Shown here one piece after another: positions 2,314 to 62,649 of a stretch of DNA of 63,301 nt. The stretch lies in contig NW_003140811.1 of assembly GCF_000003605.2 (NCBI RefSeq), positions 1,418,777-1,482,077 on the forward strand, written 5' to 3'. The translations under genes and the position numbers were made by a program. Position 1 is the first letter of the stretch. Each line of letters opens with the position of its first letter. Below the pieces are notes generated by a model that worked only from the letters and a program-made list of their open reading frames with translations, did not search any database and was not told the origin of the DNA. This DNA comes from Saccoglossus kowalevskii (lineage: Eukaryota; Hemichordata; Enteropneusta; Harrimaniidae).

Positions 2314-2570
2314 CTATATTGAAACCATTGTAGACCGCTGAATATTGATGTGATTGTTATTAGGTTTTGTGGCTGGTGATTGGCTGTCATCTTCTTTTAG
2401 ATCACTGCTTTGAATTTCACTCCACGTTTTCCCAAGTGCTTGTGCAAAATGCTCGTCTACTGTCCCAGTTATGCGAATGGCGTTAGAAGGTTTTGACGAC
2501 CAGTACTCCTCTTTGTAGTCTTTGCCAAGACTTCTACGAAAATGCTCGTCGATAGCTGGATCACACAAGC
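2314..2570 (-). CDS. VGLL4: VGLL4 terminal coding exon 4 with both Tondu (TDU) motifs
   Basis: The exon begins after a polypyrimidine acceptor TTTTCTCTCCTTCCTCAG (intron ends at 2571) and ends at TAG, 2316-2314. It encodes LCDPAIDEHFRRSLGKDYKE, a short linker, ITGTVDEHFAQALGKTWSEI, and a tail ending STMVSI. The two copies of the (V/I)DEHF....LGK core are the paired TDU motifs that define VGLL4 and fly Tgi. Other VGLL family members carry a single TDU. The motif residues, including both HF pairs and the LG pairs, are intact, so TEAD binding should be preserved (inference from family). Confidence 0.95.
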
Positions 2571-14500: not shown

Positions 14501-17500
14501 TTCGAAGAAGAAAGTCTTATTAAAATGTGCCGAGATAAATGTCTTAAGATCTACACATAGTTGAGCATGTCTTTTTTTTTCTAGAGAGCCGAAGCAGATT
14601 GCTACACAGTTATGACATCCAATACAGTAATACACACTGCTATAGTGCAACAGGAAGAAGAACAGACAGTCAAATATTTAGGCACAGAATGCATTCGTGA
14701 TATAAAGGAAGTAATAAATTTCTCTCTTTTTTTTTTTTTAAACTATACAGACATGACATGATTGGCCAACAGTGTACTTGTTTCATTAGCTTTTACCAAT
14801 AGAAACCATATATATCAAAACTGGGTTCTCCTATCCTGATGCTGTATCCATGGAAATGTAGTTCAGGTAAACAAAACTTATACATGTACATGCATTTGCC
14901 AAGAAGTAGGTGTTAAGTGTCAATATATTATCAGAAAAAAAAACTGAAGGAATTTGAGAAAATATCTCAAGCATTACAGTTGATAGCCCTAATTTATAAC
15001 ATATTCTTTGAATGTCCACTCAAGCAGAAAGATTTTCCCGCCAAAAACTTGGGCACAACTTTTTTTTTTTATACCTTAACCCTGAGTGCCACAATATTTC
15101 CCCGGCCAAAATGTTGGTGTAATATTTTACCAATTTTCATGTATTTCCCCACAATTTTTGAATAATTTTGAAACAAATAGAGATTTGTTATAGTTATAAG
15201 TCCTGAATTGTGACAGAAGTTAACTTTTGAGCTCAATTGACAAAATAGTCTCATTTAAAGTCTACACTTCCCTTCAGAAGATTGGAACGAAAATAGCCAA
15301 AATGTTTGAGTAAAAACTGAAAATTGACTCAAATTTTGTCTGTTGGCTCCAAAATTAGGTTTCATTTCCAGAAAAGGTCAACTTCTAGTTGTCAAAATTG
15401 ATGATGCAATATGGCAGACTATTTTATTTCAACCATGTGTTAGACTGTACGAGTACTGTGAACAAATTTTGACAAGAAAATGTTATGTGCCACTCTTGAC
15501 CGACTAATTATATAAATTCCTCTTTATTTTGTATCTGGCTTTGCAATTTTTTTTCTAATTTTAGTATGAGCGATATATATTAATAAGAATGCATTGAGAA
15601 AGCCTATGAAGCGAAACTTCAAGTTATTACATCCTGTAGGTATCACATTGCAGGAAGACTAGTTAATAGAGACAATTATCATCTACAGAGGCAGGGAGAC
15701 TATTTTTGTATTTGTACAAACATACCGTCAACATAGATAAATGTGAATATATTGAATCATTTTACATCCACTGGTGGCAAATAGCTGGGGAGTATAGTTT
15801 AAAGGAGATATTGTGCATATGTCGACATTGTAGACTAAACAAGAGTACTAAAGAGTCTTTATGGAATCTAGCCAATCTATTAGGCAATTGTGCTTACATA
15901 ATTCGTCTTGACGTTTACTTCCCACGATTTCGTAACCGCAAGGAATCAGAAAATCACAGGAGCTACTCAGGCGGAGAAGGGAAATATTCATTGACAGCTG
16001 GAAATCAGGGATTTATATGCTGGAATGTAGCAGGTTAACAAGCAAATGGTTTACAGATAAACATTACCATGGCAACATACAGAAAGGAGAAGGGAATAGA
16101 AAGTAACTGACAACAACAAATTTCCATGTGCATTGCATCGGATTCATTGACATTTTGACACTCTGATGGAACAGTGGGAGCCAAACAACCAAGTATGTCA
16201 GGAACTTTCTGCAAGATGCAGGCATTCCCCCCACAGCATTCACGGCAACGTTGGCATAGCTCAGTATTGGATAGCAGGAATATTATCATATACTGTGGTC
16301 GCAAAGCTACAGCTAAGCACAGTGATCTAATCACGTATACATTTACAAATAGTTCAAGTCCGGATTTTATTATTTTTTTTTTCTGGCAGTTGCCACGGTT
16401 ATATTCTCTTAATAATCAATTCTTTCTTTATTTGGTCATTAGTTTTTGATAACAAAATAATTTCTAGCTACAGATGATCCAGATCAGGAACAAATAAAAA
16501 TTTCATCCATATTTTTGGTTCTGTTTCAGTACAAGCAAAAACATTTTTTTTTTTTTTTTTAGATGTGGATTCAAGCCTGAAACCCACTGCTGTGCTCCCC
16601 GATCAGCCTTCTAGGCTTTCGAAACAAGTGGATCAGTGGTATTTGAGAATAGTTTTCAAACATACAATTATCGAGTTATAATTGCCAAATGGGTCAAAGG
16701 GCGTGATTTTAGGATGATAACTTATGTCCGAACTATAGAGTTATTTAACAACCAAATAAGGCAAACAGCCGAATTGTAATTAAAATAAACGATAATGCGC
16801 AAGCTGTATTTGGGCAAGAGGGTAACAGCTACAAATAAAGACATCTCCGACTTGACAGAACAAAAAATATTTCAATTGGAAAAAAAAAATTCTTGATTTC
16901 CGCTGCTAAGGCAACTGTTCCCTGAGTTACAAGAATCATGCTCCGTGTTAAGTAAAAACTTGCAGTATTTATTTTGAAAGAAATATAGCCGACAGTAGTC
17001 GTATGTTGAAAATATTAGAAGAATTGGTATTTACTGTGTCTCGCTTCTGCAATTGTATTATTGCTTGTCTAGGAATAAATACACGCGCACTCCTGTTTGT
17101 ATGCGTTGGCAGTGAGTCACATTATAGAGGCAAGTGTCATTTTTCTGATTAAATATACAGAACACAGACATAGGAGATTGATTACAATGTGGAGCCAGAA
17201 AGACAAATGCAGAGCATTTGTAATGCCGACAATGAAGACTTTCAAAACTTTTAAATGCCAAAGTCAACATTATTCACACTTTACCAGGGAAAAAAAAAAA
17301 CTTGCATATTTTTTTTCATGTTTGATTAAGTCACGTAGGTACAAAATCAGCAAGGGGCCAAAAAAAAACAAAAACAAAAAAAAAACGCAAGAATGTGCAG
17401 AATGTAGGCCCAACATTTTGGCGGGAAAATTTATGCCATTGTAAGGGATTAGCAATTTGGGGAGGGGGAGGGGGTAACAATTCATACGCACACGTGTGAA

Positions 17501-20500
17501 TCCATACGCTTTCAGTCTTCCATGAACTAAACTTGGGGAGTTTCATTTTCTTATATTTTACTAAAATTTATTTGTTAATTTGATACCAAATAAATGTAAT
17601 TTCAGATTTGTGAAGAAAAATAGTAAACTATTATGCAGGTTTATTTTGTGAACGGTGGCAAAATAGGTTAATTAGGCAACAAGTTCTGAGTGTATCAAAA
17701 GTTGTTATTTCTGTCTTTGATTTTCATTAATTTAGCAAATGGAAATGCAGATAATTCTAGTTTTTTACCAAAATTTATCATAAATTCTGGAAAAATTTTA
17801 CCAAGGGGATCAATACATGTGAAAAAACAGCATCTATCGGTACTTCAGAGTGAGATTTGGTTTCTATTAAGTACAGATTTACAGCGGAGAAAGAAAAGGC
17901 TGACCAGAACTACATCCAAAATGAGAGATTCAAGAAGCCAGAAGACGACAATTGTTGAAAGCTGAGTGTCTAGAGTTCAAGTCCCACGTGGTTGTCATTG
18001 CAACACTGTCTGCAAACCGGGTGGCCAATGTGACATAACATCCATGATGCCATCCACACACATGCAGACTCAGTAATTAAATTAAATAAACAAAAATAAT
18101 GACTGAAATGTGGAAAATGTAGAATTGCTTACAGATGATTTAATTAGAAATTAATTAAAATTATCCAAAATTTGCCTGACAATGTGCAAGTGAACTGAGA
18201 AGAGATTAATAACAATCCAAGGTTGAAAATTGTTTGACAGACCAGTCACTATAAACAGATACATAAACTGAAGAGTGCATAGGAAAAAACACATTGTCTT
18301 TGACACACATCTCTAAATATACCCCCCTCCATCTTGCTCCTACTCCAGTGACCCTAAAATCACAGTCCAATCATAATTTTCCAGTTAATATCGACAGACA
18401 TCTCTCATTCTGATTTTTGTTGAAATCCAATTTCTTACACTAAACAAGAATTGATACTGAAGACAGGCCCCCTATTAAAGTTATAAGCAAACAACTAAAC
18501 TTGTAATTTGATTTGGTAATGGAGCAAAACTTGACATTATGACGAGAGAGACGTTTTATACTAACAAGATTTATCACACTACAAATTATGCAAATTATGC
18601 CTTCAAGTAAGGCTTCCATAGTCTAATGAGGAGCTAAACTTAATGAAAAAGTGCTACCAGAGAATTTGAAAGACTCGGTGACAAAGTACGCACTTGAAAT
18701 CATAAGTAAATGTAATGCACTATTAGAAATCAATCAAAAGAATGTAGTACTCTGAATATACAGCAAAGATTAAAATCCACACAAGTGTCAAAGTTGTATA
18801 TAAAATACTTCTATCATACACACACACACACCCCTTCACAACACAAACACTCTATTTCCCCCTGGGCCATACTGGTACATATAAATTCTTTTAAAAGTCA
18901 CGGTTATCACAACTAATCGTTTTATGAACATCATATTTTGTAACAATGCAATGAAGTTATTAATAATTTTACAAACTATATACAATACAGATTGAAGGGC
19001 CGTCCATTAACAAATGTCTATTTCAAATAAGATGCCAACAGAAGTACAATTGCAGAGTGAGAGGAAATCCAACCTGGGTAATCTATCATGAGAATATATT
19101 GGACGTGGACAAAGCTATCAACAACCTAAACAGAAATTTTATTTTGTATGTTATTACACTTCGAGTAGAATTGCTTTCACATTACCAACGAATGTATGTT
19201 ATTTAGAAAACAAACAAATTTAATCCTTCCTTAGCGATATGTATACATAAATACACTTAATTTTTCAGTTACAAATTTGTCTTTCAGGTGAAGAAATACA
19301 AGCCTCCAGAGAAAAGCAACAGATCTAGGTAATTACTGACAATCACAAAAGTTTGAGAAAACTGATCCCAAAACAGTGGATCCACCACTGTTATCTAAGT
19401 ATGTGTACGGTACTTGGTTATGGTACTTGTCAAACATCAAAGTCAGCAGAGAGCCATGTTCTCGTTCACTATCATTTCACACGCAGTAGATATTGAAGTA
19501 GTGAAACCAATGGAATTAGACAAAAATAAACAAATATTACCTTCGAATACACGTATAACGTGGTAAGGCAAACAAGCTTCGAAACTAGCGTGTCCAGTGT
19601 AAGTTAAGGTCTCCATATTAAAACTAACACGCCACTCTGCACGGCCAGTATACACACACTTTAATCTATCCACTGCGTTGCACAGAAATGACGGAGATGC
19701 AAAATGGGTTGGTTGTTTTCACAAGTTAGCCTCGACTATGCCAACTATGCCAAGAATGTCATTCATGCTAGTACTCTGTGCTAGGGAGAAACTCTGAAGG
19801 TGCCTTTTCTAAGGCATACTGCCACCAAGCAGTCAGCATGGTAAAACTTGGCACAGCAACACATGCCTATGAGTGAAACTAAAACAGTTTAGCACAATCT
19901 CATGGATGATTCCATTTAAAGATAGGGGTGGGCTGATGAAGACCACCTCATAAACATTTTTGCTTAGACCAATTAATTTCAATTTTAATTGCAGCAACTT
20001 GTTCCATTTGAATGCAACATACATAGTTATTTAAATTACATATTATATAAATACAAGGTAAAATTATTTTCAATTTGTCTACCCTTGGCATTAATGGCAT
20101 TTCCCCTTATTACAAGGATTGGAAATTTGTTTTAAGCCTGCTGCTTTTACTCATGTGGTAGCGATTAACTGGTTGCCTAATGCATTTCCCAAGAATCATA
20201 ATTACACACTGCACACTGGCCATCGGGTCGAGGATGTTGACTTGGATCATATTTTTTTTTTCAATCTAAATACAGTATTAATGTAGTAAATTAACATTTT
20301 AGAAAAATAAATATTAATTATTATGTAAACAAAATTTAATTAAACTTTAACTCTCTATTGATTCAATTATTTTTACTAATTAAGTTGTCAGGGAGCTGCC
20401 TGACTTGACTCTGTTGAGTGAATACCTGAGGCAGTTTTAACCTACGGCCCACATATCCCTGATGTTTGCTGCACTATGCACTACAAGCTGTTAAACCGTA

Positions 20501-23500
20501 ACGTAAAAATAAACACCCCCATTAACGCTGCAAGTCAACGCTGCAATTTCGAACTTAAAACACAAATTTTATTATGTGTTAGTTTCTTCTGCTCCAAAGA
20601 CTGAATTTAGTATGACATTAATATTTCACTCACTAAACAATATTTCACTAAAATATGTGATTAAAAAGCAACTTAAATTGTAAAAAGCCGTGGAGCGCTA
20701 TTTTACACAAAATCGGCTAGTAAGGCGTCATAGTACACAAATCTGTGCTGAGACGACATCTGTGATGGCACAATGTAAACACCCTCCACAACAGAATAAT
20801 CAATCTCTGAGACATTAATTTGCATAATTTCCATACCACAGTGGCAAAAGAATATTTATCAAGTATCGTCTTACGAGTGTCCTAGTTTCCATCCATCAGA
20901 AATGTCATAACACATTCTCAAAATATGTATGCGCAACTTTTCGCTTCAAAGGGAGGAGGCAGTAGAATGTTTTTTTGAAAAGGGTAATATTTGACCTACG
21001 CAGGAAATCTCGAGAATGTATGTTCAGAACACAGCTGCTAATCTACATATCTCAGAGAATACAGTTCGAACGAGCCAACAAGTAAAAAAAAAAAAAAGTT
21101 ACTTTGCCAGCAGATCTGATTTACAACTTCCAAAAACTTAACACATCGCTTGCCCTATACAACTCATTTCGGCTATCCATGGAGGTATTCAGCAGGTGAC
21201 CCAATAAACTTTCAGTATTTTTCACTCCAATCTGTGCACATCTTAGAATGTCAGAATTTGGCTGCCATAAATGCACACAAATTCTACCTCGCTCATTATC
21301 GTTAATACATTGTCTGCTGCTGCAGTTACATCTCATTTATTTTAGGGTATCCATGGAGACTTATAGCTAGCGATGTGATGCGATAAGAACCAAGGGACTA
21401 ACATTGAAACATTGCGTGCAAAATGGACAACAAAATATACGACATTTACGAAACATTATAGTCAACTTTCCGAAAAAATGTCATCGGTATTTGGAAATGA
21501 TGTTATCCTCAAGAATATTCTAATTATTACTACAACTTGGAACAAAGCCAAGGCGTGAAAAAAAAATAGTGTCACCTTTTGATCTTGTAAGATTTCAAAA
21601 TTTACATCATGTTGTTTTTTTCATTGGCAAAAATCCAACCTTTTATTAACCTTGAGTAACCTGTAATTTGCGTCGATTTTGAAATAACTATAAGTGCACA
21701 GACTATCACAACACAGTGAAGTACGATTTTAGCATAACTATAAGCCTACATTACAATGCAGGCAAAGATGTTTTTCTCTTTTCTTTTTTTTTGTTCAGAG
21801 GGGTGGTGCACGCCATCTGGGGCAATACGACATTCACCCAATTGACTCAATTAGTAACCGGATCAGAGTTAGGCAGTAAAGCCTTCAACTGTGAAGTTCA
21901 AGATCACGATAATTGATCACTTCCGCCACATTGATAAAGATGGGGGAAACTTCTGCTTGATTTCCGCCTTGGCATTCACACCTGCGGTGAGTCAGGAAGT
22001 GTCACAAATTCAACATCACCGAATGTTTAGATAATTTGTGTCCGTCCCTCACAGATCATATTTACCACCGAGTTCATATTGCCATGCATACTGAGCATCT
22101 CTAGGTTGCTGGATATTTAATATCTCATGCACATATTTACGAGTGATCTTCTAGCGATATGCGACGAATGCGTGGTATGTCAAAACTGGACAAATGAGAT
22201 AGCAAATAGGACAATAAAAGACATTGCAATAACAGAAACTGTCACACAAGCAAACTATAATTATAATAATTAGAGCACATTTGTGAGTTTGTAACTTTTA
22301 CAAAAATTAAAGCAACGTTCTTCTTGAAGAACCTTGTTGTAAGTTTCACTGTTTAGATGAAAAGTTCGACGCATAAATCCGTCATAACCCGTGATATAAA
22401 TTGTTCACGCCAACGTTTTAGTCCCATGTGATGCATTTTTCTTCAATTTCTTTGTTTGAAAACAGTTGACTTTTGTCTTGACCCTTTTTCACAAGTAAAC
22501 CCCTAAAAATTTGTTTTTCGTAAATATTTAAAACGATCTAATCGGAAATTACAGTATCTTGAATATTCATGATTTTATGATTTTCCTGACATTCGGCGCC
22601 GACAACATTTTGCGAAAACCAAAGCAATGAAATTTCCACTGCTACAAAGTTTTAAGATTTTCACTAAATGTTTGTTGTGATATTAAAGTGCATTACAATA
22701 TATTCACTTGGTTGAGAAATTTAAGAAAGAAATTCTACAAAAAATATTGTCTCAGAATTTCTTTGAAAGAAGTACTGTAAAATGCGCCTTTTTAGCTAGC
22801 ATGTTATTTTTAGCTAATTTACCTAATCTGTACTTTTGCTAATTTAAGATGTAGCTAATTTAACATAAAGTATATTCTCACAATGAGGTATTCGAAACTT
22901 TAGCTAAATTAAGATTCTGTTAATTAATGCCGAGAGTCAAATTCGCTAAAACTGCATGCAGCTATTTAAACGTGTTCTACAGTGATTTAAAAAAATGTTG
23001 AAGCTGCCTGTAGACACATGTTTATCATAATATTATATTCAATATTTTCATGAAACTGTATTCTAAATAACTATAAAAAAAAAAACCCGATCACTGGTAG
23101 CATAGTGGTTGTCGCATCAGACTCATGATCGGTAGACCCAAGTTCAAATCCAATCTTAGGCTGAACATCAAAGGGTCGACCCCTACCCTGGGTGAGTGTG
23201 CCACAGACTCAATGAGAAGGCCAATTCCGCTGGCCGAGATTCATTCACTTACGAATGCGACTTTGGGGGAACCTTGGTTAAGGTCCGCAGGTGCTTGTGT
23301 TCGACCGAGCCTGGTTGATGCCAGGATAGCGCATTAAAATTGCCATTTGATAGGGAGATGGCCACACAGCCCTGTCATGTAGTCCCAAACAGGAAATGAC
23401 TTCTGTGGCAAAATGCACTATGTGTCAGCACTAGCACTTGCAATTTGCACTTAAAAAAAAAAAGTCAGGAGTGACAACAGTGACATTCAATATCCGGAAC

Positions 23501-26500
23501 TGTCGCCAGGCACAAAAACATTTAAAAAAAAAAAAAAACATGCGCACAAGATGCAAAGTCATACGTAATATGCAATACAAGATTTATGTAATAATATTGC
23601 CAAATATGGAGAAAGAAAGTAGAACCCTATTAGTCAATAATACATTTCTGCCATTGCAAACATTCACAGCTATAGAGACACATACAGGTTAACGAATACA
23701 ACACCAGTGGGGAATCACACGCATCGCATCGCATCGCTATCTCCAATGGTATTATAACAGCCAATGTTTTGAAATTTATCTGATTGTTAAACTCGTTTTT
23801 AAAGATACAAAGTTTTATGCGTTTGATGTAATGGGAAAACTCTCAAGCCCGGAATGGGTAAAAGAAATCAAGCAAAGTTTTTTTATGAATATGTGAAAAT
23901 GTTTTCACATTCATACATGAAGTGAACACTTTGCAAATTATATATCTACAATTGTGTTCCCTATTCATGTAAAAAAAAAAATCTTAAAACAGTTTAAAAA
24001 TAAAATAAAAGTTCTTCATACTTTCAAAAATATGATGCGGCCTATTTCATGAAATTTTTACAAATTAAAATAATTTTATTTTTAATTAGTCATTTATATT
24101 ATTAAGATTTCACCATCAAACATGATAAAACAATCCTGAATGAGTATTGATAATATTTTGTCTTATTACTGGTATATCAGTTGGACATTGTTACACTTGT
24201 TTTAATGCCACTGATTCTTTTCATGAAGGCAGAAAAAAAGTACTGGGCTGCCCATTAAACCAATTTTCAGAGAAAGGGAAATGCTATGGCACCATTTCTT
24301 TTAGATCACAAATATACATGTTTAATACAGTAAGATAAATAAAACTTCTTGGACAAAATGGACATACGGTATTTGTTCCATCAGTAGCTTACGTAATTGA
24401 CAGGTGTACATGTATATGATCAAAATATATAGTGTACAGCAGAATTAAAATTAAAATGATTATGTAAACCATATCAAAATGAGAAATCACGATAGTCTAT
24501 TGAGGGGGGGGGGGGGTGTTGATCACTAAATTTAACATTGCTATGGAAAGTTCCACTCAACATTAGATAGATCCATAATCACTTTGCATCCCCTTACAAA
24601 CTTCTATTCCTATCTCTGGCAAGGCACTTACTCATCTTTCATCCTTCATCCGATCTATAGTGCCTCAAAGCAGTTTCAAGGATCGTGGAGTTATTTATAA
24701 TCAAGGAAGTTGGGCAGAAGATATTGGGTGCACACTCCGCCTAATTAACTTCATCCCAGTCTCAGATAATTGATGAACTCTGCAAACTGGGAGACGCTGC
24801 TACCACACTCCCCGAGTTAAGACAGTTTAAGAACAGCGATGATATGATCTCACCAGCAAAAAGAGTGTAATTTAATATGCGTGATTCATTGAAATCCTAG
24901 GGAGAATTAAATGCGTGCTCTGCATAAAACAAACCACAAATTTTCTTTAAATTACATTTATGGTGGATTCTTTTCCTGAGCAACCATTATGGGTTTTTAC
25001 ATGATCAATAAATGTCTATTAAATTGGGGAAGGAGGTAACAATCAGTGAAGTTTTTATCTACAGACTTTATCTTAGTCAGCCCTTGAGTTACGGTAGTAT
25101 TGATCTCAAACTCTCTGATTAGCCATCACTACATAACACCTATCCGGTAACCGTATAAGCCAATCACGGATGACCTTATATTTAGATCTTGCAAATAAAT
25201 TGTCAAACTGAGAAAATTTTTCAAAATTTTTTTGCAGTTTTCGGAGAAATTAATATTTGCTAGTTTTATTCACAATTACGAATACAAAACGATAAATAAC
25301 AATTAAGAAATATTATCAATTATCAACTTATAGAAAAATAAGCAATAACCTAAAGGAGTGGGAAGCATATCAGTCTTGCACATCACATGACCACTTTAAA
25401 GATTATTATGATAAATTACAAGAGAACAACATTATCAACTTAATTGTATTTGCAGGTTGATTCATTTTGTTTGTAGCATACATGTAAGCATTTCTTAAAT
25501 TTGGAGTAAATACAACTATTCAATGAAAACCAGCGATCAGGAAAGTTAATCTGCACGACATATTGTAATAGTAGACATCCACGCACATAATACATGTGTA
25601 CATATATGGACGATCGGAGATTGTTAAACATCGCTACAACATTCTTTGAGTAAATAAGAGCATTCCTAAACAAAGATACATTGAATGAACTAAAGAAACG
25701 AATACCAGCCATAATACAGCCGGATCAAAAACAATTTGACCGATTTCTTACTTATTTCCATGCAGTCAGGGAGGCAAAAAAATTTCTGCATGAGAATTCT
25801 GCGTATTCATACCCATTGTGTTATTTTGCAGCTTGGCATCACGACTTTAAGAAATTTAATCCACGGAATACCAACCGATGTTCCGTAGTCTTTAGTTACA
25901 TCAGTGCCCGAGTTATTCAATCGTTTACACGTGTTAGCAACATGTTTTCAATTCTCACTCAATCCCCACCGAAATCTTATTAACAGATTTGAAATTTGAT
26001 GAATTAGAACATACAAGACTGTAGTAAAATAAACACAGAAAACCTCAACTTCTGTACACACACAAAACCCCCAAACCATTTTGCATCAACCAGAAAACAA
26101 AGTGGTACGACTATGTGGCTCAGTAATTTTAATTAAATCATCAAATCTTAGAAGATGTACATTCCTGCATTGAAGTAAAATATACAGTTATACTCTATTT
26201 GCAAAGATAATAATTACCAGAAGTGGTCCAGATGTCACCAAAGATTTATTCGCATTATGTATCACGATGGATCATAGCTCAGCATACATTTGGTGCGAAC
26301 ACATGTGAACATTTTTTTCTCTTTAGGAAACCGAACACTATAAGAGGTACACAAATATGAAGGCTTGGAAGATGCCTTTCAAAATAAATAAAGTGTAATT
26401 CACACCAAAAATAAATAATATAATAATAGAGTTACTTTAATAAATTCGTAGCAGTATCAAATATCTGTTTCATTTTTTGACTTCACTTGCTGTGCATGTT

Positions 26501-29500
26501 TAATTCACCGCCGGAAATCCACACAAAGAAAACAACCGATAAATACTGATGCATAATAGACAGTCAGAAATAAAATCTAAACAGGCAGACTTGAAAGGAA
26601 GATGACATAACTGATGTCACGCTCAAGTTCCTAAATTGAACTAAAAAGTGTAATAATTGATTGAAAAGAATTGCATATTTCTAAAAAAGGAACAAGAACA
26701 CAAATTCCAGCCATTCCACTAGTTATTCCCATAACAACAACAGACAGGCACACAGAGAAAATTTGGCATCAGAATTCCAGGTTTTCACCTCAAAACCAGG
26801 AAAGAGCACTTTGTTTTTGTTAAAATTTTAATCATTTCCTTTGTGGGGTAGGGTGGTGTGGAGTTAACTACCAATCTCTTCCAGAAGTTAAAGAAAATTA
26901 GAGGGTAATACCCCCGCCTCACCAATCAGGATGAGCCTAGGAAATCAACAGGAAACTGCATCTTGGCTTCATTCCAACTTTCAGTCACAGTTAATTTTAA
27001 ACTGCCATGACTGGTCACCGGTTACAACATTCTTAACCATTTGGGCTTATACTTGGGGTGTCTAAAAATATATCAGAGCACAGAGATCGCAACAACAATT
27101 TATGAGCGAAAATACTTTGTAGCAACACATAAATAACTGCACTGATGAGTGTCAAAGATTAATGTGCATGAGGAGAGATGATGAAGATGATGAGAACGAT
27201 GAGGAAGAGGAGAACAATGAGGAATAGGAGAACGGTGAGGAAGAGGAGAACGATGAGGAAGAGGAGAACTATGAGGAAGAGGAGAAAGAATAGGCTTGAA
27301 TTTAATTGTTAAAACGTTAAAAAAGCAATGAAGTGAGAATTAGTGGAAGGATAAAAAAACCATTGAAGAAACACAAACATCAGAAAGAAAAGTTTTGTTG
27401 TTCAATTCATCATTAAAGACAGATGAAAAATGATTTCAAAGACTGTCTATACAGTGAAGCAAAAACATTTGTTTATTTTAAAAATTGTAATTGACACAAA
27501 TGGACAACTGTAAAGTATGTTTAGATAGTATCTTTTGTGGTTAAACCAAAGAGTAATTGCTACAAGTACAAAGTCAGGGTCATTAAACAGTATTGATGGA
27601 CACATTCTTGATATCTATACAACAGAAATTGCCTGATGTCAAAGACTCATCAGCCAAAACTCATCTAAAATTAGTTGTTTATCCAGTGAAGTGACCCGAC
27701 ATAAGGACTGAATCCGATATCTTGTGTTTAATAAAAAAAATATGATCCTCGAATTGGTGCCCCTTGGTGCAAGTAAAAACAATTTCTGGCAGAACATACA
27801 ACACTTCATTTCATACAAACACTGATAAGCATGAACATACAGCAAACAATTTGAGTCGGTGTAGCGGTAGTTATTCTTGTATCACTAAATTTGACGGAAT
27901 ACTATTTTTTTTCATAATCCATGAGAATCGAAACAATTGAAAAATTAAGATATTATAAGAAACAAATTTAAAAAACAGTTGCTATGGCAATTTACCTTCC
28001 ATTATATCAGTGTCCGATACCTGTCCTTCCACAAAAGCGCTTTGCTCGTCGAGTTTCACCATATTACATGTGTATCCGAGTGAATACTGTGCGATGCAAC
28101 GTAAAGAAAATTGCATATGTGGCCGGGTTGAAATGCACCGAATGGATTTAAATACCAACCATGTTGCTAAAACGGGCAGAAGTGGGAGGAGCCACAGATA
28201 GAATTCATCCCTGAGAGCAAGCAACTGAGCTGGTCGAATCCATGGTGACAAGACGTGCCCTTTGACCTCTCCTAGTCTCTGAATGGTGATGTGCTTATTT
28301 CAGGTGGAATGCTGTGTATTCAAATTCCAAAGTCGGCAAATAGTCTAGTTTTTAAATGCAAGTATTAAACTCTCTCTAAAAATATGCAGCACAAGTTTAG
28401 TTAAGCAAAAGACAAATTGCAATGCTAACACTGCATTACATTGTGTTAGAGTAAAAAGACAAGGCAAAACTGCTGTGTGTTTTGGTGTACATTTCCTGAG
28501 CTATAAGCATACTTGTTTTAGGAAAATGAATTCCACTATGTTAGGAGTATATATTAGGAGCTTCTAGAGCAAACTTCGGAATCTATACCATTATGGGACG
28601 ATGGACAGTCTCTCTCGATACAGACACGCAAGCGTCTATATGCCCACCAGCACTGCAGCTCTAACATGCCACCATTCCCAAGAAAGCCATTAAAGAACAT
28701 TAACTTGTCAATTTTTTCAAGATTACAATCTCTTTAAGCATTCAGGTCAGCTGGAATCAAGTCTTTTTGTTACTCAGTATTGGAGAATACTATCAAACTA
28801 TTAAACTTTATTTCTGCAGCATTTATGAAGCTGAATATGTCCCACAAATTGAACCAAATTGGCAGAATAGTTTAAGAGATAGTGGACAAATAAGTTCAAT
28901 GTCAAAAGGGCCATGGTCCAATGGCTTCAAATATTAATAGTGAAAGCAAATTTCCATTAATGAAAGGATGGTGAAAAGAATGAAAACCAAATCAAAAAAT
29001 ATTCAAATGAGATTACAATTCTTGTAAATTAAAACTAAAATTAAAAATTATTTTTTGGCAATTTCCACTAAAAACAAGCCGGTAGGCTGGTTGGCGATCC
29101 ACTCCGCTCAAAAACAAGCACCATGTTTTTGGCTGTTTCCATGGTGTGACATAAACGCGAAGCTAACGTCGGTTTATAACTAATACGAAGTTCGCAAACA
29201 CCATTCAGTTTTTGGAAGTCACTTAGTTTATTACAAGGACCACAATCACTCTCCTAGTCGAGTGACTGTGCTAGGACGTATTCTGCTGTTACATTTATTA
29301 TTTCCAACCGTTTTGCGATAGCATTTTCTAGAATGAAGCGTTTCCTGTAAATGCTGGAAAGCGAAATAATAAAATAACGAGATGGTAAACAAGCTGGTCA
29401 AAAACAAGCAACATGTTTTTTGGCTGTTTCCATGGTGACATAAACGTGAAGCTGACGTCTGTTTATAACTAATACGAAGTTCGCAAACACCATTCAGTCT

Positions 29501-32500
29501 TTAGAAGTCACTTAGTTTAGTACTAGGACCACAGTTACTCTCTCCTAGTAGAGTGACTGTGCGATAGCATTTTTTAGAATGAAGCGTTTCCCGGAAATGC
29601 TGGAAAGCGAAATAATGAAATAACGAAATGGTAAATATTTACCTAAATTGCAGTGTGTTGACCTTCATAACAATATACTTCATAATGCAAAACACTAGTC
29701 ACAGTGAGTAATTTAAATATACGACTCCTAATCGAAAAATATGACCACAGTCCAGAATTTCAGACGGATATTAAGCAACCTAAGAGCATATCAGAAGCAT
29801 TTACTCTAAAATATAAAAAAAGAACTGCAGTCAAAAGTCAAGAATGCCAGCAAATAAAGGACTCTGTCCCACAATCCTTTGTGCGCGTTATTACGGACAC
29901 GCGCAAAAAACTGTACCACGCTTGTCAAATCTGGGTCAAATATACAGTACGCTACTATCTTGCCACAGATTGTTTAGTAGTGGAGTGTTCGGTGACCATT
30001 GAATTAGCCCGTGATTCATATTTTATGTGTATTAATTTATTCATCAATTTTCGTGACTGACAGTACTGCCCAAATTTTAGTCAAAAAACGCAACTGGTGA
30101 AACANNNNNNNNNNNNNNNNNNNNNNNNNNNNNNNNNNNNNNNNNNNNNNNNNNACTGCGAACTCGGCAAATTTGGTTGCACAACTTCCCTTTATCATAT
30201 ACACCCAGCGACACCGATGCCAGCTGACTGTGTACAAAACTGGTAGGAGGTAATACATTTGGGGCGAAAGTATTCAAAAATCAGTTTTTGGATGTTGCAA
30301 TGGCAGTGGTGGGCCAGGATTTTTTTCCAATTAATGACGGCACGACCTACCTGTGAAGTATGAACAAAACCAGCCGAGCCGTTGCTGGTGAAAAGTTACC
30401 CCAACTTTGGGGTCAAATTTCTCGGTAATGAAAACAGATATCAAAAATTCAAATGGTAACTTTGTGCCCACACTCAAGCTGAGTAGAATGAGCTATGTTT
30501 GAAGTATTTTATCCCAAATTTGTAGGAGGAGATACATTTGGCGCGAAGCTATCCAAAAATCAGTTTTTTGGCTGTTGCTATGGCAACGGTGGGCCAAAAA
30601 AATTTTCCAGATTTTTCCTTATAACTAGGGTTAAGGTGTGACCTACCTGCCAAGTTTGAACGAAATCGGCCAAGCCAAAAAAATCACAGAAGAAATAATA
30701 CGTGAACACTGGAACACTGGAAATGTACACACACAGACAGACACACACACACACACACAAAACGACAAAAGTGATTATAAGGGCAATCCTAGCGGAGCGG
30801 ATCGCCAATATTACAATTTATAGATTAACCCCCCCACCCCCCAAATAAAAACAAGCTGAAAACTGATTAATACTTTACTTTTATACGTCACTGGATTTCA
30901 ATTTTCTCATGTAAACAATAGACTTGGACCACTCATTAATTATGTATGCAAAGCCACAGGGGGCGATGTTCAGATTTCATAATACATGGCAATAGTTGGG
31001 AAACAGTGTGGCACACATACAGAAGGATCATATTTTAGAATTCACAAACGTGTCACTTTCGTTGATTGCTTCACTTTGCAACTCATAACTGAAGCCCACG
31101 GCAATTCTGTATTATATTTAGAGTCAGAAAATATAGATTAATTGTTTATAAATGAAATTTATTTGTTTTTGATTAAGTACGATGAAGCATACATCTCGGA
31201 TTCCACTTCCACTATGTTACAAGCCCTTATGGGCAGATCTGCCTATTTTAAAGTTTAGTGCCTGTAATTTCACACAGTGTGATTAAATGCAGTGTAAAAC
31301 TAGTCATAGTTTTTATCATAGTCCCCATTTGTACTTAACTGACAAAAGCATGCCTGAGAAATGCTTAAGACACATCAAAATAAAATCAACATGGCCACCA
31401 GTCAGCCATTTTGAATCCAATAATATGTTTTATGGTGAAAAATGTTTATTTAATAGTTAAATTTCATCAAAACCGCAATTAATTATGTTTTGTCCTAAGA
31501 AATCAGTGCAAGTGTCTGAAAAATAGGATTTGAAATAAACAAAAATGATGAACAGTCATTTTTAATAAAACTGCAAAAAAATACATCAGTAACCCAACAT
31601 GATAGATAGATTTCAGTGCCAAGTTCGAATGTTTGATGACAAGAACTGGTGCCAATTGCTGTTACAGGTCACCAAAACAAAAAACAAATCACTGTTCACA
31701 TGAATAACATCATGACTTGTCATTGCACAAGCTTTTAACAAATCAGTCCAGACATGTTTAATAGTTTAAATAAATTTGAAATTCTTGAAAAGTCTAATTT
31801 TTGGCAATTTGGAAATTACTTTGGTAAAAAAATAATTTGTGACAGAATTTATTTTACAACACAATATTTGCCCGAGAAAAACTACGGTATTTGACGAGTT
31901 AAAAACATATAGCCATCACGACAGACACACACACATATATATATACATGTATAATGGAATACAGAACTAGCCTACACTCTACAAAAACAATCATTAAAGT
32001 TCCAAAGTTTACATAGATTTAATGCAGTATAACACAAGAACACAAAGAATCTTTTGTCCAGAGGGTTAATAAATTCTGACCTGCATGCCAAATAAATCAA
32101 AATGCCTTGGGCTATAGATACTTTAGTTAATCTCAACAGTGTGTTCTCGGTACATTTCTTCACAGGTTGCAATGATCACACAGATATCCACCACTCTGGG
32201 ATGAAACAAGGAGAATCATGGGATAGATACAGGAAGAGCAACCCACATTGGTCGTCTTTTAACAGTATTCATTTCTTCAGAGAGTTGCCGAGAGTTACCA
32301 GGGCCAATATTAGTCAGCGATGTTAAAATAACAAAAACGAACCCCTGATGGGTTTTCTAGCTGGTAATGTTATCCATTTAATGTCAATCACCACTTTTTT
32401 TTCTCCTCCAAAATCATGGTATAATATTATTCACAATGTACGTGGTTTTTGATAATATCTTGTTAAATTTTGGGACATAATTTCCCATTGCCTACACATC

Positions 32501-35500
32501 TTGATTAACATTAACGAGGAAATATCAATAAAATTTAATTTTAAATTTAATTTTAAATACTTGAAGGGTACAGATCTCGCACATAAAGGTAGGGAGGGGG
32601 TAGTACAGGGAAAGTAAGCACTCGGGGGGAAAACTACACACTAGCGGATACTGTCAATGGAACAAGTCTTCTGGCAAGATTAATTCCATTCCTGCTGGTA
32701 ATATGGTAAACATCTTGCGTACTTTCTGTCAAATAAAGCAGCAAGTCAATAAATATACACAACTAGTCAAATTGCCCACAGTATTCAAAGCAACTTGTAA
32801 CATTTATTGCTACTGACACAGGTGCCCGTATCAATAACAGTTAGAAAATCAGAAATGCAAAATTAGAAACGTGTATTGGAGATACTGATCTTTACCAACC
32901 ACTATTGAATAGATACTAAACAGACTGTTTTGAATAAACATAGATCATATTGCCCTCTACTTAAATAACATCAACAATAATGGGGAATTGCTTTAATACA
33001 TACATAAGAAAAAAACTACAAACAATTTATTGAATAAATTAATAAAATCTTGCATATGGCTGGAAATATTTCATCTGGTATAAAATCCAAATATAAACCA
33101 AGCTAAAGCAATAAGTGAACTTATAACGTGCATGCTTACACATCTTAAACTGGTATTCCTGATAAAATTGGAAGTTAATTGAAAGATGATACGGTATAGA
33201 CTATACCAGTAATGAACTTGTCTACAAGTCCAAGTGGTTTTAAAATAAGCAATGTAATCAGAGATGGGTGCTAAGCTAGAGCCAACTATGCAGAGAGTTT
33301 GATTATTGGTAATTTGATGAAAAGTTGCATCCTATGACAATACTAGTATTCTTGCTGATGGATCTTGTAAACATGAAAACCTCAAAGCTTTCTATGGCAT
33401 CTATGGCATGTAATTCAATGCAAGGGTGAATTGACTTGCCTCAGCTGGCAGACTAGACTAGACTGTCCTGCCCAGCCCTGTCCTGTCCTGTCCTGTTCTG
33501 TCCTGTCTTTGAGGTGAATGATTCGTGATGATAAAGAGTATTTGGGAGGGCGGATTTCTAAGAATTTAGATCTCAACACAACTTTGCTTGATTTGACACT
33601 GACAATCCATGTGCAATCAGAAATTCTTTAGCCATTTTGCTAATGAACTGGTTTCATCCTTATCAACTATGGTTGCTAAGCGACATTGGTACAAATGATG
33701 CTGCTCCTGCCTAATATCATCAGAACATAAACCCAGGACCATCCCTCCTGATAAGGGGGATACTGGAACAGCGCCCCCACAGCTCACAAATGTGGCTCAC
33801 AAATGTTACTGAATTCAGACAAAAAATTGCAAGAGACTATGGCTTTTCAAACAATTCCAGGTTGCCTAAAGAAAAATGTCAAGATAAAAGAAATCTGTGT
33901 TTATAAAAATATAGGGGTGATGGAGACAGCCTTTTTTTAATTACCAATCTAGAGAAATGGTGAAGTGCTCTATAATTGTCTGTTTACCTAACACCAATAT
34001 CTGATAATTTGCAGAAGTCGCACACAGCTGAAAATGATATGACCTTTTCACACCCAAAAAATACTGTTTTTTTTACTTAATATTTAACAGACTTCAACTT
34101 GAAAACGAAAACATGACAAACACATGCAAGATTTTATAGTTCACTCTGAGGACATGACTGGCAAAGGAAATTGAGATAACGGGACAAAATTTTTAATCGA
34201 AATCAAAATAAATTAAAACTGCAAAGTAGCTTTTTCTGAGTCCAAGTTTGAAGGTCGAGAGTAGAATGTCTTAATATGTACCCAATGATGTGCATTTTAT
34301 TTTTTACGGAAGATGTTTTGGAAGTGAAGTATGGGGCAGTACCACAACCGGAAGTGAATTGTGGGTCAGTAGCACTACCGGAAGTGAATTTTGGGCCAGT
34401 AGCACTACCGGAAGTGAATTGTGGGCCAGTAGCACTACCGGAAGTGAATTGTGGGCCAGTAGCACTACCGGAAGTGAATTTTGGGCCAGTAGCACTACCG
34501 GAAGTGAATTGTGGGCCAGTAGCACTACCGGAAGTGAATTTTGGGCCAGTAGCACTACCGGAAGTGAATTGTGGGCCAGTAGCACTACCGGAAGCACAGT
34601 GTGGAACAGTACCACTACTGGAAGTGAATTGTGGGCCAGTAGCACTACCGGAAGCACAGTGTGGAACAGTACCACTACTGGAAGTGAATTTTGGGCCAGT
34701 ACCACTACCGGAAGCACAGTGTGGAACAGTACCACTACTGGAAGTGAATTGTGGGCCAGTAGCACTACCGGAAGTGAATTGTGGGCCAGTAGCACTACCG
34801 GAAGCACAGTGTGGAACAGTACCACTACCGGAAGTGATCCCATTTATATAAATTGTTACATTTATCAATTGCATTTCCTTGAACTATTGTGAGACAATCA
34901 TGAAAAAAAAAAACTGGGACAATTGAATATATTGACCACAGAGAAATGTCTCATGTTTGATGAGAACACTGGTACAGACAAACAAATGGGTTGAAGTCAC
35001 AGTAAATACAGTTAATAGACAACACAAAACTGTGTGATTAAAATGAAACCATAACTTTAGACAAACGAAGCAACTAGGATAAGTGACTATTTTGATGGGA
35101 ATTTTAAAAGCTTTTTCAGCTTTACAGACAAATCAAGTTAAATGAATGGTTATTACATTAGAAGGCAATAAAACAAATGAAGCCATTAAATAGATACAAT
35201 CAAGATTATAGCGCAGATATTTGAAAAGCCTCTTCAAACTTAGACTGATTGCGGTAATTCTACTTTGGGGTGAAAAGTTGATTCCGGTGAGTGAACCACT
35301 CTCTTGAAATGGTTTTCTGCTTGATTTAGAGGATGGAAAATTCATACGTCTCACACAAAGTGAAAACAACAAACGTTGCAAGAATTTCAATATCCAAGGT
35401 ATTGAAAGTCATGATTTATAAAAAATCTAAATCTGAACAAATATTTTTTTTTTCAGAACATTTGAACTGTGAACATTTCTCCAAGAGTATAAATTGACTC

Positions 35501-38500
35501 CAAGACTATCGCAACATTTAATTCTGTCCCATCAGGCAGCAAGAATTTTTTTTTTGAAGCAAAAAAAGATTAATGACTGGAAATTTATTTACCGCATAGT
35601 TTGGTTGATCTCTTTTAGTCGGTGTGAAAGATAATCCCGGCCTGTGTTATGTACGTAATTTCAACTATGATACACTTTGTAACACTGTACGTCTTTTCAC
35701 TGTGGGTAGTCACTTATACCGCCAAAATAAAGAGATTCTTTTCCCGTCCATCTTCTTCAAGACACGAAAATAGTTCTCCACTGTTTTTAGTTTTCATTCG
35801 CAGTTTGCATTTATTTTATAATGAAGCCACAGTTTAAAATTATTGATTTAAAGAAATATAGCTGTGCAGATGAGCACTGAGCACAGCTTGGAAATTTTAA
35901 ACTTCGAAGGAATGCTTGTTATAATTATATAAATAGTTGAAGCAATGAAAACTGACTTAAGGATTTGTTGTCGCTACTGAGAAAATATATGCAACTGGAA
36001 GCCTAAGGCATCACCTTTAGATAACAATGGCTTCGCATATATGTACACCAAGAATTATATGGGTAGCTGTATTATTATTCGTGGCTGGCTGCTGTAAACG
36101 GAACTATGTCAAATGAATAAATATTGAGAGGTTCCAAGAGTGGAAAACATGTATCCAATAATTTTTTTATAAACAGATAAATCACTGCATTGTCCACCAT
36201 AGGGGTGGAAGAGCGTTTCAAACATGCCAACCTTTAAACTGCAGCACCACATTTTAGTGAATAAACTATAGGAGCTGATGGGGGGAATTAACACAGTACA
36301 CATAAATCTGGCTAAAAATACCCCCAATTGGAATTTTTACAGGATCCATATTGTCTGTATCAAAATGGCTTGCATCAATCAGCGCTATGCAATTGCCGCC
36401 TGGATTTTTAATGACTAGCAAAAACAAATCTCCTTTGAACTCAATACCATTCCTGGCATAAGTGAAGTCACCCTGGTAACTGGTCTCCATGGAGGGTTGT
36501 CATGCCGACCCAACATCATCGCTCAGGGGACATCTAAGGTCATGGTATTTTCCTTGATGATTTCTAAATTGAATAGAGGGGGGTTTTCCTGGCTCAATGG
36601 TGTCCAAAATTAGAATCTGAGAAGATATTCAATAAGTAGTCTTTTTCGTGATATAATTCCACAACACACATGGCTCAAATTTGAGCTGCCCAAACACCTC
36701 CCCCCTCCCATCTGCTTCATTTTAAGGTGAAAAAGAAAGAAAGATTTATGTGACATTACAATGTAATGCAGCGCTACATAGCACAGTACTACGACAACAC
36801 AATGTGGTGCTGCAACACGATGCAATGCTACGACACAATACAGTGAAATGACAACACAATGCCATGCCACATTATGTAACACCATGGAACAGAAAAAATT
36901 AAACATGGTACAATTAATAACTTTTTTGGTGTATAAAAGTCATAAGTTTTCTGGTTAAGATTCATCATTAAAATGAAATTTCTGGGAAATTAAAAAGATT
37001 CAATAGCGTAAAAATATTATTTTCAGAATTCTATTTTTAAATTTCATATTCTCACCAAAGGATAATGCTCAAACACTTTATTCTCTGTAATTTGATCACC
37101 TTTATTTTAAACACCCAGCATTAGACTGCTCAATAGGAATGGCGTAATAATAGCTTAACAAGCGCTGTGAATGACCCCTATATGTCACACATCCTGGTAC
37201 TTTCTGGGGTTGCACACAACAAATTGAATAAAAATAACAATCTAACAGACTCAAAACAGAAAACATTCAAATTATAACACACGCAAATTAAATAAGCAGA
37301 ATATATTAAATTATTATACATCTGTCACCATAATATTATAAGTTACAGCGTGCTGTAATTTTACAGTATTGCACTGGGTATTTTCATCCTACCATATTAG
37401 GAAACGCAAATTCCAAATATGGAACGATTGCATGCATAAGCGTGTTCTAATAATAAAAAAAAAACATGGCTGCCCCCCAGGGTTTGATCAGACATCACAC
37501 AAAGAAGTTCGCTAAATCTGTTCTAAATGTTTTGGATTTCTGCATTCCCATGAGTACCGGTATTATGAGGATACTGTAAAGTATGCACTCAGACAGTACT
37601 AACCTCATATTCATAAACAACAGAAGAGACTTGTCTATTTTCATGGCAATAGGAAAACATAATTTACATATTAAAATAGGCAGACATAAAACTCCATAAG
37701 TTTATATTGATTATATAATACATGTGATCAAATCAAATCAAATCAAAAACAAAATGTACTTCATTGCAATGTGTGATAATGATTAACCGTTTCACCACCA
37801 GTTCCCTCTTTTCATCACAAATTCACAAAATAGTTCTGTTTATAGTCAGCACTTTCCTTCAGAATATTGGGAGAAAAATAGCCAAATGTTTTGAATGAAA
37901 ACTGAAAATTGACTTCAATTTTGTCTGTTGGCTCCATAAGTATTGTTATTTCCAGAAACATTGAAGAATAAATAAAAAAAAGTGCTAGAAATTCTCGTGG
38001 TGAAAAGGTTAAACAGAGAGGCAATCCTTGTAGGAAAGAATGAGGAATGGCTGAGGTGTGAAATACTTTAGATATCTAGACGATAAAACAATTATAAACA
38101 TGTGTAACAAATAAATTTAGTTGTCCCATTTCAATTTTTCCATGTTTTGTTTCAATTTTGTTCCCTCTTATTGCTTTTTTTTTTACTATTTTCTAAATGG
38201 ATGCAATAAATGTTGTATTCAATAATTTCCAATATTGTACCTCCATTTTATAAGACCAGGATGTATGACCTCAAGACCAGGATGTATGACCTCAAGTCCT
38301 GAGGATATGCGATCTGGAGAGCAGGATATGAGACCTCTAGCACAAGAAGTACATTTATTCAGCCAGCATATACATGTCCTATCTTTGAAGTGTAACCACT
38401 ATAAGCACGGCATGGAATGTAAAAATATCCACAACATGTGAACTTCATCAGGAAATGGCCCTCCGGGACATTCCCAGTCTTGGATTTTTATCACGTATCA

Positions 38501-41500
38501 ATCATCCTTAAACCGAGAAATGTAAACATCTTTTATAAAGTTGTGAAGCAGTATATGTGGATGTTTATTATCAGTGCTGAGTCCCATTTGTTAACATGCA
38601 GCTCACACACTAGTAGTAGACATTCTCGGTCAATGTTAATGAAAATATACCAAGATTGTAGAAATACACAGACTGTATGTATCTGTGCAAAGAGCCTATA
38701 CATTGGTGAATAGTATACACTCTAATCACATCCTTCCACTCTCGCTTGGCAGAACTAAAAAAAAAAAAAAAACTGTTGTATAGCTGCATATTATAAGCTT
38801 TCCAGATCAAAGGTTGTATTCAATCAACATGTATGCTAAGTTCTGCTATTGAAGAATTAAACTCTGCTGGGAAAAATACTGTCACAAATGTATTAAGGAG
38901 TGGACTTTTTTTTCTTTTCTTTTTGGAGGGGGGAAGGGGTCTTGTGTACATGCAAAATAAAGTTGGTGGTAACACAGTTTTTTGTTCATTTAGTTTTTAT
39001 TATATCAATTCAATAACAGCTGAGCCGTATACATTAAAATACTTTATTTTAGCTGGAATTCATTTTCGCTGAAAAGACTATTTTGGTGTTTTGTATTGAA
39101 TTCATTTTCACTGATTTGTGTCAAATTGAATGTAAAATATAAGAAAAAAAGTATATTCGCTGGATTTTATTTCATTGAATCATTCTTTCAGCGAAAATAG
39201 CGAAAATTTATTTCAAGTGAAACCACCATCGTCACCCTCCAATCCCCATTTTCAATTGAGCACTACTGGAAAACTTAACACTGACACAATCAATACATAT
39301 ATAAGATCCCAGACAATTTAACAAAAAAGACGCGTTCATTGGGAGCAGATGGGTGTCATTGCAAAACAGATTATTTAATATTTTCGAGATCAAAAACAAA
39401 GAAAATATGTTCCAACTCAGAAATGCGAGAAATCCCCCGCTGGTATTTTGATCATTCAGACCGATAATTGTACATAGCTCTTAATATCATAATCCTATAG
39501 GTACATCAGAACCATATGCAAAGAACCATATCTAAACTAGAAACACATTTACAAGCGGCAAATTTCAGAGCCAGAAAAATGCAAAATCTATCAAGCGAAA
39601 AACAAATAAACATTTGCATTAACTGTTGTCACTCTAATTGGCCAACAAGAACAACTTTCCCCTCCCCAAGGGATGGAGTTCCCCCTCCCCTCTCCCTCTG
39701 CATAACTTTAAATGATAACAACTTTTCTACCAGATGGCAGTAATCATCCCAGTGCAAAACATGTTATTAAAACTTTAACGACAGAACATTAAAAGTTTCA
39801 AGTGTACATGTAAATAATCCAAAAGATGAATCCTGATAAGATCAGCGGGAATCCCTATCCTTGACTAGACTTTGGAAAACATGAAGCCAGGAGAAGTTAA
39901 TTATACTCTGTAGTATATATTCTCAGCAGAGAAATTTCGGTCATTTTAAAATGAATCAAATTGGAACCAAATATATAATTACATTTGAAATTAATTTTAA
40001 ATATTTCTACTGAGCAATCAAGCCATTACAATTTTTTTTCTAATGTTTTTATGGAATTTATGACAAATGGTTTATAGGCCAAGCAGAAAAATAAATTATA
40101 ATGAGTGTTTTCAGAACAAAATGTAATGGTTAGACTTAAGGAGCATGTGCTGAATGCTGAATTTTGAGCTTCTGAGTATGTTACTGAGCACAAGTACAGA
40201 GAATTATGGGATATATATTTCCATTGAATATAATGGTAGAAATATTATCTCACTGAAAACTCACTAAAGTAAACATAAATTTGGTTTTAACAAAATTTTT
40301 AGGATTCATAACAATAAAAATTATACATTATGCAAGTTTTTTTAAGGCCAACAGGAACCAATGCAAAAACGATTCAGATTCAGTATCAAAAAAAATATGA
40401 ACTACCAGTAATAACAATGAGAATATGAAAAACATGACATTGTATTCAACTGACTTATTATCTAGTAACCTGAGAAAACTATGATTTTTAAGAGGTGGGT
40501 ACTTAGTTGAGCATAAAAACCCTATTAAACAATTATCAAAATGAACATTTTTGCTCACAATTTACATGTAACCATGTCTGTGATAATATTACGTCTCGTA
40601 GCAGAAAATTAAACATTGTTTTTTTCTTTAAAAAGTTATGTTGTCATTGATTGCAACAAAAGTTTTACAAAGAACAAACAAGTATTCACATTATTTATCA
40701 TCTGAATTTCTTATTATTATTAATTATTAAAGAGCAAGTGAAAATACAGTCAAAGTAATTAATTTACTGAAAGCAGTCATTCACAAACACTCAATGCAAA
40801 GCAATTTCCATCGTAATATTTTGCTGCATGACCTGCAACAACATCCAAAATTAAATTCTCTCATTAACCAATCATTTTTTTTTTAAATTGGCAATTATTA
40901 ATTTTTAAAAGTTAAACAAAGTGTGAAAGAAGTATTTATACATTCTCGGTTGTCATTTGCAAAACAGACACTGTAATTTAATTATTAGGAAAAGTAAAAC
41001 AATGTCATGTGACCAGATTTCATGACTAGACAGTATTGTACAATTGGGGGCATTACGGAAGTGATTGACATTTGTCAAAAATACAAATCTTACAAAAATA
41101 AGTGCTGGGAATTTGATATAGGAGCTAAGGTGATTGAATACTGTATTATCTGGAAATCAGATAGAGAAATTGTAGAAATATTGATTGTAATAATTCACTT
41201 GCGGGGCAACAGAGGAACACCACCACCATCATTTATATCTGAGAAAAGTATCAGCAAAAAAAAAAAAGACAAATTATGGAGTACGAGTATTTTGCATTTT
41301 TTTCAGACATATTGGACACCAAACAGACACAGAAGCTTTCATTATATCATATTTCATTGGACAGGCATGCGTGACTATCAGAGTTCTAACCTTTTGAACG
41401 CTGTAACTTTCCCGCCAAAATGTTGTTGCAACATTATGCACATTTCCATGTATTATTCTAGAATTTCTTTGATAATTTTTAACAAAATAAAAAATAATTC

Positions 41501-52425: not shown

Positions 52426-52457
<32 letters not shown>

Positions 52458-62255: not shown

Positions 62256-62403
62256 CCTGATCGAGCTCTCTGAAAAATAACAAGGTGAGATCTAGTCAAG
62301 GTGGTTGATTCTTGTCGCGCTGCTTCTTGCTGATCGTTGCAAACACGGCGGTTTACAGCTACGCACATACGAGGAAAATCGGCTAAATCATAGCGGAACC
62401 TAC

Positions 62404-62640: not shown

Positions 62641-62649
62641 TCACCGCCT

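Follow-up and report, generated by a model that had tools for sequence, protein, structure and literature searches.

A candidate alternative first exon of VGLL4 within a 47.7-kb intron of the acorn worm Saccoglossus kowalevskii

The VGLL4 gene on the minus strand

VGLL4 is a restrainer of YAP–TEAD growth signalling. The window analyzed here, that is the whole stretch of 63,301 bp, carries a VGLL4 gene on its minus strand, the exons of which were all assigned by homology (Table 1; exons are named by their boundary positions). The joined exons match the Pfam VGLL4 family (PF15245) with 63.4 bits, the cut-off being 27, and align with PDB 4ln0 chain C, a TEAD-binding fragment of VGLL4, at an E value of 3.1e-14 with both motifs aligned. 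The gene identity proposed by the initial annotation is thus borne out, as is the presence in this gene of an intron of 47.7 kb. Like the TEAD cofactors of the VGLL4/Tgi group, the window protein has two Tondu (TDU) motifs at its C-terminal end, a Pfam VGLL4 match, and a METPLDV N-terminal exon that ends in phase 1 before EAALR; it differs from them in its divergent middle part.

Table 1. Features of the VGLL4 locus in the window
Feature	Coordinates	Strand	Details or basis
METPLDV exon (ATG 62255)	62192..62269	-	acceptor before 62269; ends C/GTGAGT, phase 1
Second possible promoter and first exon	61737..61920	-	GGGGCGG 61919, TATAAAAG 61889, ATG 61819
Giant intron, 47,698 bp, containing candidate exon 1b	14494..62191	-	sequence
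Presumed 5' UTR and promoter of exon 1b	28063..28300	-	base composition, motifs
Candidate alternative first coding exon 1b, MVKLDEQSAFVEGQVSDTDIME + G	27996..28062	-	ATG in AAT ATG G context
Donor GTAAAT of exon 1b, phase 1	27990..27995	-	score 5.27 including exon side
First common exon, EAALR...	14310..14493	-	starts GA-GAA-GCT after CCACCAG; donor AC/GTGAGT
Common exon with RPSVI	2806..3086	-
Last coding exon and stop, two TDU (Tondu) motifs DEHFRRSLG and DEHFAQALG	2314..2570	-	Pfam and PDB 4ln0

Joined to exon 14493, the METPLDV exon yields ...EANR-EAALR. An acceptor that we rate as good, TTTTTCAG/TTATTTTTCAG, lies 14 bases ahead of the METPLDV ATG. This acceptor makes it probable that the distal transcript begins with an untranslated exon located farther upstream and that the METPLDV exon is its second, not its first, exon. 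The CpG-richest of the 400-bp windows listed fall at 61400–63000 (observed/expected 0.91–1.37, compared with a window mean of 0.58), and this region of ~1.6 kb is a candidate for an unmethylated promoter that would serve the distal transcript.

Between exons 14310 and 3086, which join directly in phase 2, no exon was found, so that the common exons number three. Neither an acceptor–coding–donor scan nor a pattern search with RSPIER-type words, taken from the middle of the human protein, gave a convincing candidate for a missing middle VGLL4 exon between these two.

Elsewhere in the window, at 34320–34837, a 30-bp unit is repeated 17 times in tandem (85% matches), and several frames are open there on both strands; the minus-strand frame tested had no Pfam match. 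A dispersed repeat family occupies 5128–5632, 7803–7919, and 51612–52044, with copies that are mostly 72–81% identical. On the plus strand, 23125–23290 is an open, coding-like stretch of 55 codons with a moderate donor and no Pfam match.

Frame, donor, and coding signal of candidate exon 1b

Within the giant intron, the initial annotation had placed an alternative first exon at 27996..28062, with an open frame ending in a GAAG/GTAAAT donor in phase 1 and the splice product IMEG-EAALR. The coordinates are exact on the minus-strand sequence, and frame and donor read as claimed: 22 codons run from the ATG at 28062 to the last exon base at 27996, and GTAAAT follows from 27995. Frame and phase fit exon 14493, to which the phase-1 donor can be joined by sequence, with G/GA as the junction codon and ...DIMEG-EAALR as the product. 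Around the ATG at 28062, positions -3 and +4 are occupied by A and G, respectively, and position +5 of the donor is not a G. The frame remains open up to 28299 and includes a second ATG, at 28116, whose context is poor. D, E, Q, S, and V are abundant in the peptide, a composition atypical for translations of this A+T-rich intron.

Searches for tRNAs and against Rfam (gathering scores) gave nothing. No relatives were confirmed in prokaryote-genome and viral collections, which is expected because this is an animal gene. A repeat or transposon origin was rejected, since no copy of exon 1b occurs elsewhere in the window at an E value of 1e-4 and the 105-residue open frame has no Pfam match.

The donor and acceptor splice matrices and the amino-acid frequencies used for scoring were general background values. 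In the intron, 602 phase-1 GTs on the minus strand follow a frame that is open for 8 codons or more from an ATG, and among them that of exon 1b alone attains a donor score of 5.27 or higher; by the same criteria the plus strand gave 0 of 381. The minus strand from 62491 to 14494 has six donors of at least 5.2 bits, one of which (62403) is outside the intron, and only that of exon 1b comes after a phase-1 frame of this kind and minimum length. To set these counts against expectation, we simulated introns from the intron's own statistics (Markov orders 1–3, 40 per order). These contained on average 0.375–0.65 pairs of such a donor with an open frame no shorter than 20 codons, and 35–45% of the simulated introns contained at least one. 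Hence, the frame and donor of exon 1b are not significant on their own, and the same expectation counts in favor of a chance reading, in which a cryptic donor of fair quality terminates an open frame by accident, in a part of the intron richer in G+C, and is never used for splicing.

Coding potential was scored as average protein composition versus intron composition, either from residues only or with even synonymous use, and a joint scan summed donor and coding bits over phase-1 candidates that have 12 or more codons and a donor score of at least 0. Over the entire minus strand, exon 1b ranks second of 46 candidates with 15.3 bits (12.8 with residue composition only), behind a stretch inside VGLL4 exon 3086–2806 (16.3 bits) and ahead of the METPLDV exon at rank 3 (14.4 bits; 10.3). 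Rank 4 is far lower at 5.1 bits (4.7 with residues only), so that, besides segments of VGLL4 exons, no minus-strand phase-1 candidate comes near exon 1b. The best of 43 plus-strand phase-1 candidates reached 11.5 bits, compared with 15.3 for exon 1b. In simulated introns, the joint score has maxima of about 5 on average; 15.3 bits was attained in 0 of 200 and, with the fuller score, in 2 of 300 (2 of 500 together), and 12.8 bits with residue composition only in 0 of 200. These results speak against chance.

Among other ATG-started open stretches of 21 codons, the coding score of exon 1b is matched by 1 of 290 (residues only) and 0 of 290 (even synonymous use) on the minus strand, and by 2 and 1 of 259, respectively, on the plus strand. 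In a cruder count, made without a splice matrix and with the junction codon omitted, at least 6 of 7 donor matches were found for 0 of 244 plus-strand candidates and for 1 of 385 minus-strand candidates; this one is exon 1b, which has at least 8 coding bits as well. Six minus-strand candidates have 8 coding bits, five of which start in or overlap the METPLDV exon, the sixth being exon 1b; on the plus strand there are five such pairs, derived from three unrelated open stretches, and four of the five have poor donors (1–2 of 7 matches).

The signal is also specific to the frame. It amounts to 0.45 bits per codon in the frame of exon 1b, compared with 0.24 and 0.16 in the other forward frames, both of which contain stops, and is about zero on the opposite strand. 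Cumulatively, it peaks at 28050–28053, adjoining the ATG at 28062, and declines unevenly upstream though the frame stays open. The codons that follow this ATG come close to the METPLDV exon in coding likeness; those immediately before it in the frame do not. A coding signal that starts at a well-placed ATG argues further against a chance frame.

Shuffles that preserve base composition gave p values of 0.004–0.047 over three scores for the 21-codon body of exon 1b, 0.010–0.040 for the METPLDV exon, and 0.81–0.96 for the 21-codon stretch that precedes exon 1b. When the junction codon was left out, the range for exon 1b was 0.004–0.097, the amino-acid p value going from 0.047 to 0.097. The shuffle test is a poor judge of exons, since it misses VGLL4 exons known from homology: in exon 14493, the opening 21 codons gave 0.017, 0.71, and 0.47 and the entire exon 0.10, 0.40, and 0.89, and exon 3086 gave 0.28–0.45. 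This failure leaves room for chance, as does the local G+C content of 46%, which raises the coding score of exon 1b and accounts for part of its signal. The proportion of 21-codon stretches scoring at least as high as exon 1b was 0 of 40 in exon 14493, 19% of 73 in exon 3086, and 0 of 64 in the last exon. A score this high is therefore rare in the intron yet not the rule in exons. Because the coding test was picked after the peptide had been seen, its p values deserve a discount. The coding-like composition of exon 1b is supported statistically, and we regard a chance frame as unlikely.

An acceptor–coding–donor scan of the minus strand returned exons 3086, 14493, and METPLDV as its top three segments (25.8, 24.4, and 23.1 bits). 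As an internal cassette exon, exon 1b was rejected, its best acceptor, at 28166, being weak and the total only 6.3 bits, a low value of the kind that a first exon should give. In 28500–27996, no acceptor scores above 4 bits by a crude matrix that gives the acceptor of exon 14493 itself only 4.6; exon 1b, if real, would thus probably be the exon in which transcription starts. It might instead be the first exon of another transcript (a noncoding RNA or a nested gene) or be joined elsewhere than to exon 14493. An intron of 47.7 kb plausibly holds other transcripts, and our test covers the donor side only. Its phase, however, fits exon 14493, and the best internal-exon segment within the intron, which is the next segment of the scan, reached 12.0 bits among the 14 best listed, compared with 23.1–25.8 bits for VGLL4 exons, so we consider another transcript highly improbable.

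Upstream of the exon, the G+C fraction over 28000–28300 is 0.455, a value attained by 1.4% of the 400-bp windows, and the CpG density is attained by 3.8% of them. The CpG rise is modest (observed/expected 0.77), compared with 1.26 in the METPLDV region. TATTTAA occurs at 28154, and a TEAD-type GCATTCC lies at 28312, just outside the presumed promoter. Upstream ATGs are found at 28243 (an open reading frame of 12 codons) and 28069 (ATGTAA), one of them in near-ideal context, and both would be within the leader if transcription starts above 28243.

Comparison with the vertebrate two-promoter gene

For this comparison, we take human VGLL4-001 to be the METPLDV form and the peptide of the human alternative first exon to be MLFMK...CYEG, which served as reference for exon 1b; this peptide was not found in print in the open-licence literature searched. 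There, we also found no report of an alternative first exon in an invertebrate VGLL4, and the portion of PMC6874126 that was available does not mention N-termini. A two-N-terminus arrangement of VGLL4 is already known in vertebrates. Xenopus vgll4 has six exons and, like its mammalian orthologues, two promoters that give two mRNAs with different N-termini, a conclusion based on databases for mammalian VGLL4 and on RACE for Xenopus (PMC12922143). The shorter Xenopus form, found by RACE, has a unique end of 22 residues; it is maternal, its zygotic expression is undetectable, and its adult expression is mainly ovarian (PMC12922143). In the available part of a report on the human gene, VGLL4-001 is translated from the second exon and VGLL4-003 from a unique first exon, the last four exons being common (PMC5481333). 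The two promoters and two N-termini that the initial annotation ascribed to vertebrates are thus in print, for the human gene as far as this part goes (PMC12922143; PMC5481333).

The window gene resembles this arrangement in several respects. Human VGLL4-001/-003 and Xenopus vgll4.La/vgll4.Lb place two N-termini on one common set of exons that ends with the two-TDU exon, and both the METPLDV and the alternative form are joined before EAALR. The junction proposed as shared holds, in that the phase-1 donor of exon 1b fits the acceptor of the EAALR exon. Translation of VGLL4-001 from exon 2 and of VGLL4-003 from exon 1, as described in the available part of the human report, is paralleled by a METPLDV exon with an acceptor and an exon 1b for which the crude matrix gives no acceptor above 4 bits. 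According to these papers, the common exons number four in human and Xenopus (PMC12922143; PMC5481333), whereas there are three in the window. More generally, alternative promoters in long 5' introns offer a parallel, in that a first exon in the proximal position encodes a short N-terminus of its own; the only difference is the gene involved.

These likenesses favor a stronger form of our reading, in which exon 1b and the alternative first exon of vertebrates are direct orthologues and the two-promoter gene predates vertebrates: gene, acceptor, and phase are the same, EG precedes EAALR in both, and, to the extent of the human report available, translation would begin in the first exon as in VGLL4-003, and the acceptor of the METPLDV exon is what a counterpart of VGLL4-001 should show. 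The residues do not bear this out. Against the human exon, the short form of exon 1b gave p values of 0.41–0.46 (local) and 0.19–0.24 (global), and the form begun at 28116 gave 0.39–0.68, whereas for the METPLDV exons of the window and human 0 of 2000 shuffles aligned as well. Among 453 ATG-started intronic peptides, 19–69%, depending on score and form, scored as high against the human exon. By shuffles and intronic peptides alike, homology with the human alternative exon is unsupported on sequence, and the peptides of the two exons are unrelated by this measure. The initial annotation had pointed to EG before EAALR in both exons; this is weak evidence of homology, because donors of at least 3 bits in the intron span (both strands, phase 1 onto exon 14493) give xG in 54 of 66 cases and EG in 5 of 66. 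Nor is the shared phase informative, since any first exon spliced to acceptor 14493 must end in phase 1. Direct orthology is therefore doubtful in our judgment, and an independent origin and a rapid divergence of exon 1b would fit equally well. Duplication of the METPLDV exon (1a) as the source of exon 1b was not adopted (local p 0.08, global p 0.52).

Predicted promoter use at the VGLL4 locus

Taken together, the coding statistics, the gene, the frame, the donor, the phase, and the junction agree with the alternative first exon of VGLL4 that had been annotated here, and its homology with the vertebrate exon is unsupported. We consider 27996–28062 likely to be the coding part of a real alternative first exon. 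A promoter just upstream of 28062 in the 47.7-kb intron would start the transcript, and its first donor (27996/27995) would be spliced to common exon 14493. The protein would swap METPLDVLSHAAAMVQTDEANR for MVKLDEQSAFVEGQVSDTDIMEG and keep the rest, including both TEAD-binding Tondu motifs. The Pfam profile match begins at residues 101 and 104 in the two N-terminal forms and does not discriminate between the N-termini. Since the N-terminus would be exchanged and the remainder unchanged, exon 1b would serve mainly as a second point of transcriptional control, and its N-terminus may confer different stability or partners. As initially proposed, an internal promoter might also account for the retention of the giant intron.

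A further candidate is found at 61.9 kb. It lies near the 5' end of the giant intron, where the DNA is rich in CpG, at 300–370 bp downstream from the METPLDV exon. Its ATG has the context ACC-ATG-G and opens 27 codons that end at a phase-2 donor, AT/GTAAGA (G at 61736), in frame with exon 3086 and out of frame with exon 14493. A human VGLL4 isoform reportedly also omits the EAALR exon. The joint score of 10.6 was attained by 1% of 300 simulated introns for phase 2. With residue composition only, the score is an unremarkable 5.8, and shuffles of the candidate's own bases indicate an ordinary coding composition (p 0.16–0.42). TATAAA followed by A or G occurs 31 times on the minus strand of the window. 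This segment is a lead only, a possible third promoter of VGLL4, and weaker than exon 1b. In a VGLL4 gene with three promoters, the distal one would give the METPLDV form, a TATA-box promoter at 61.9 kb would give MVVVHSAVADQ... spliced onto exon 3086 with EAALR skipped, and the intronic one at 28.1 kb would give MVKLDEQ...; the multi-promoter plan, junctions, and phases would then be ancient in animals, the alternative peptides would diverge freely, and selection would keep the choice of promoter. We think this extended scheme rather improbable.

If an internal promoter changes only the N-terminus of VGLL4 in so distant an animal, control by two isoforms, as known from frog and human cells, might date far back in the regulation of the Hippo pathway, and this could be tested wherever an animal has transcript data. 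If exon 1b arose independently, a proximal promoter would have evolved repeatedly in one long intron.
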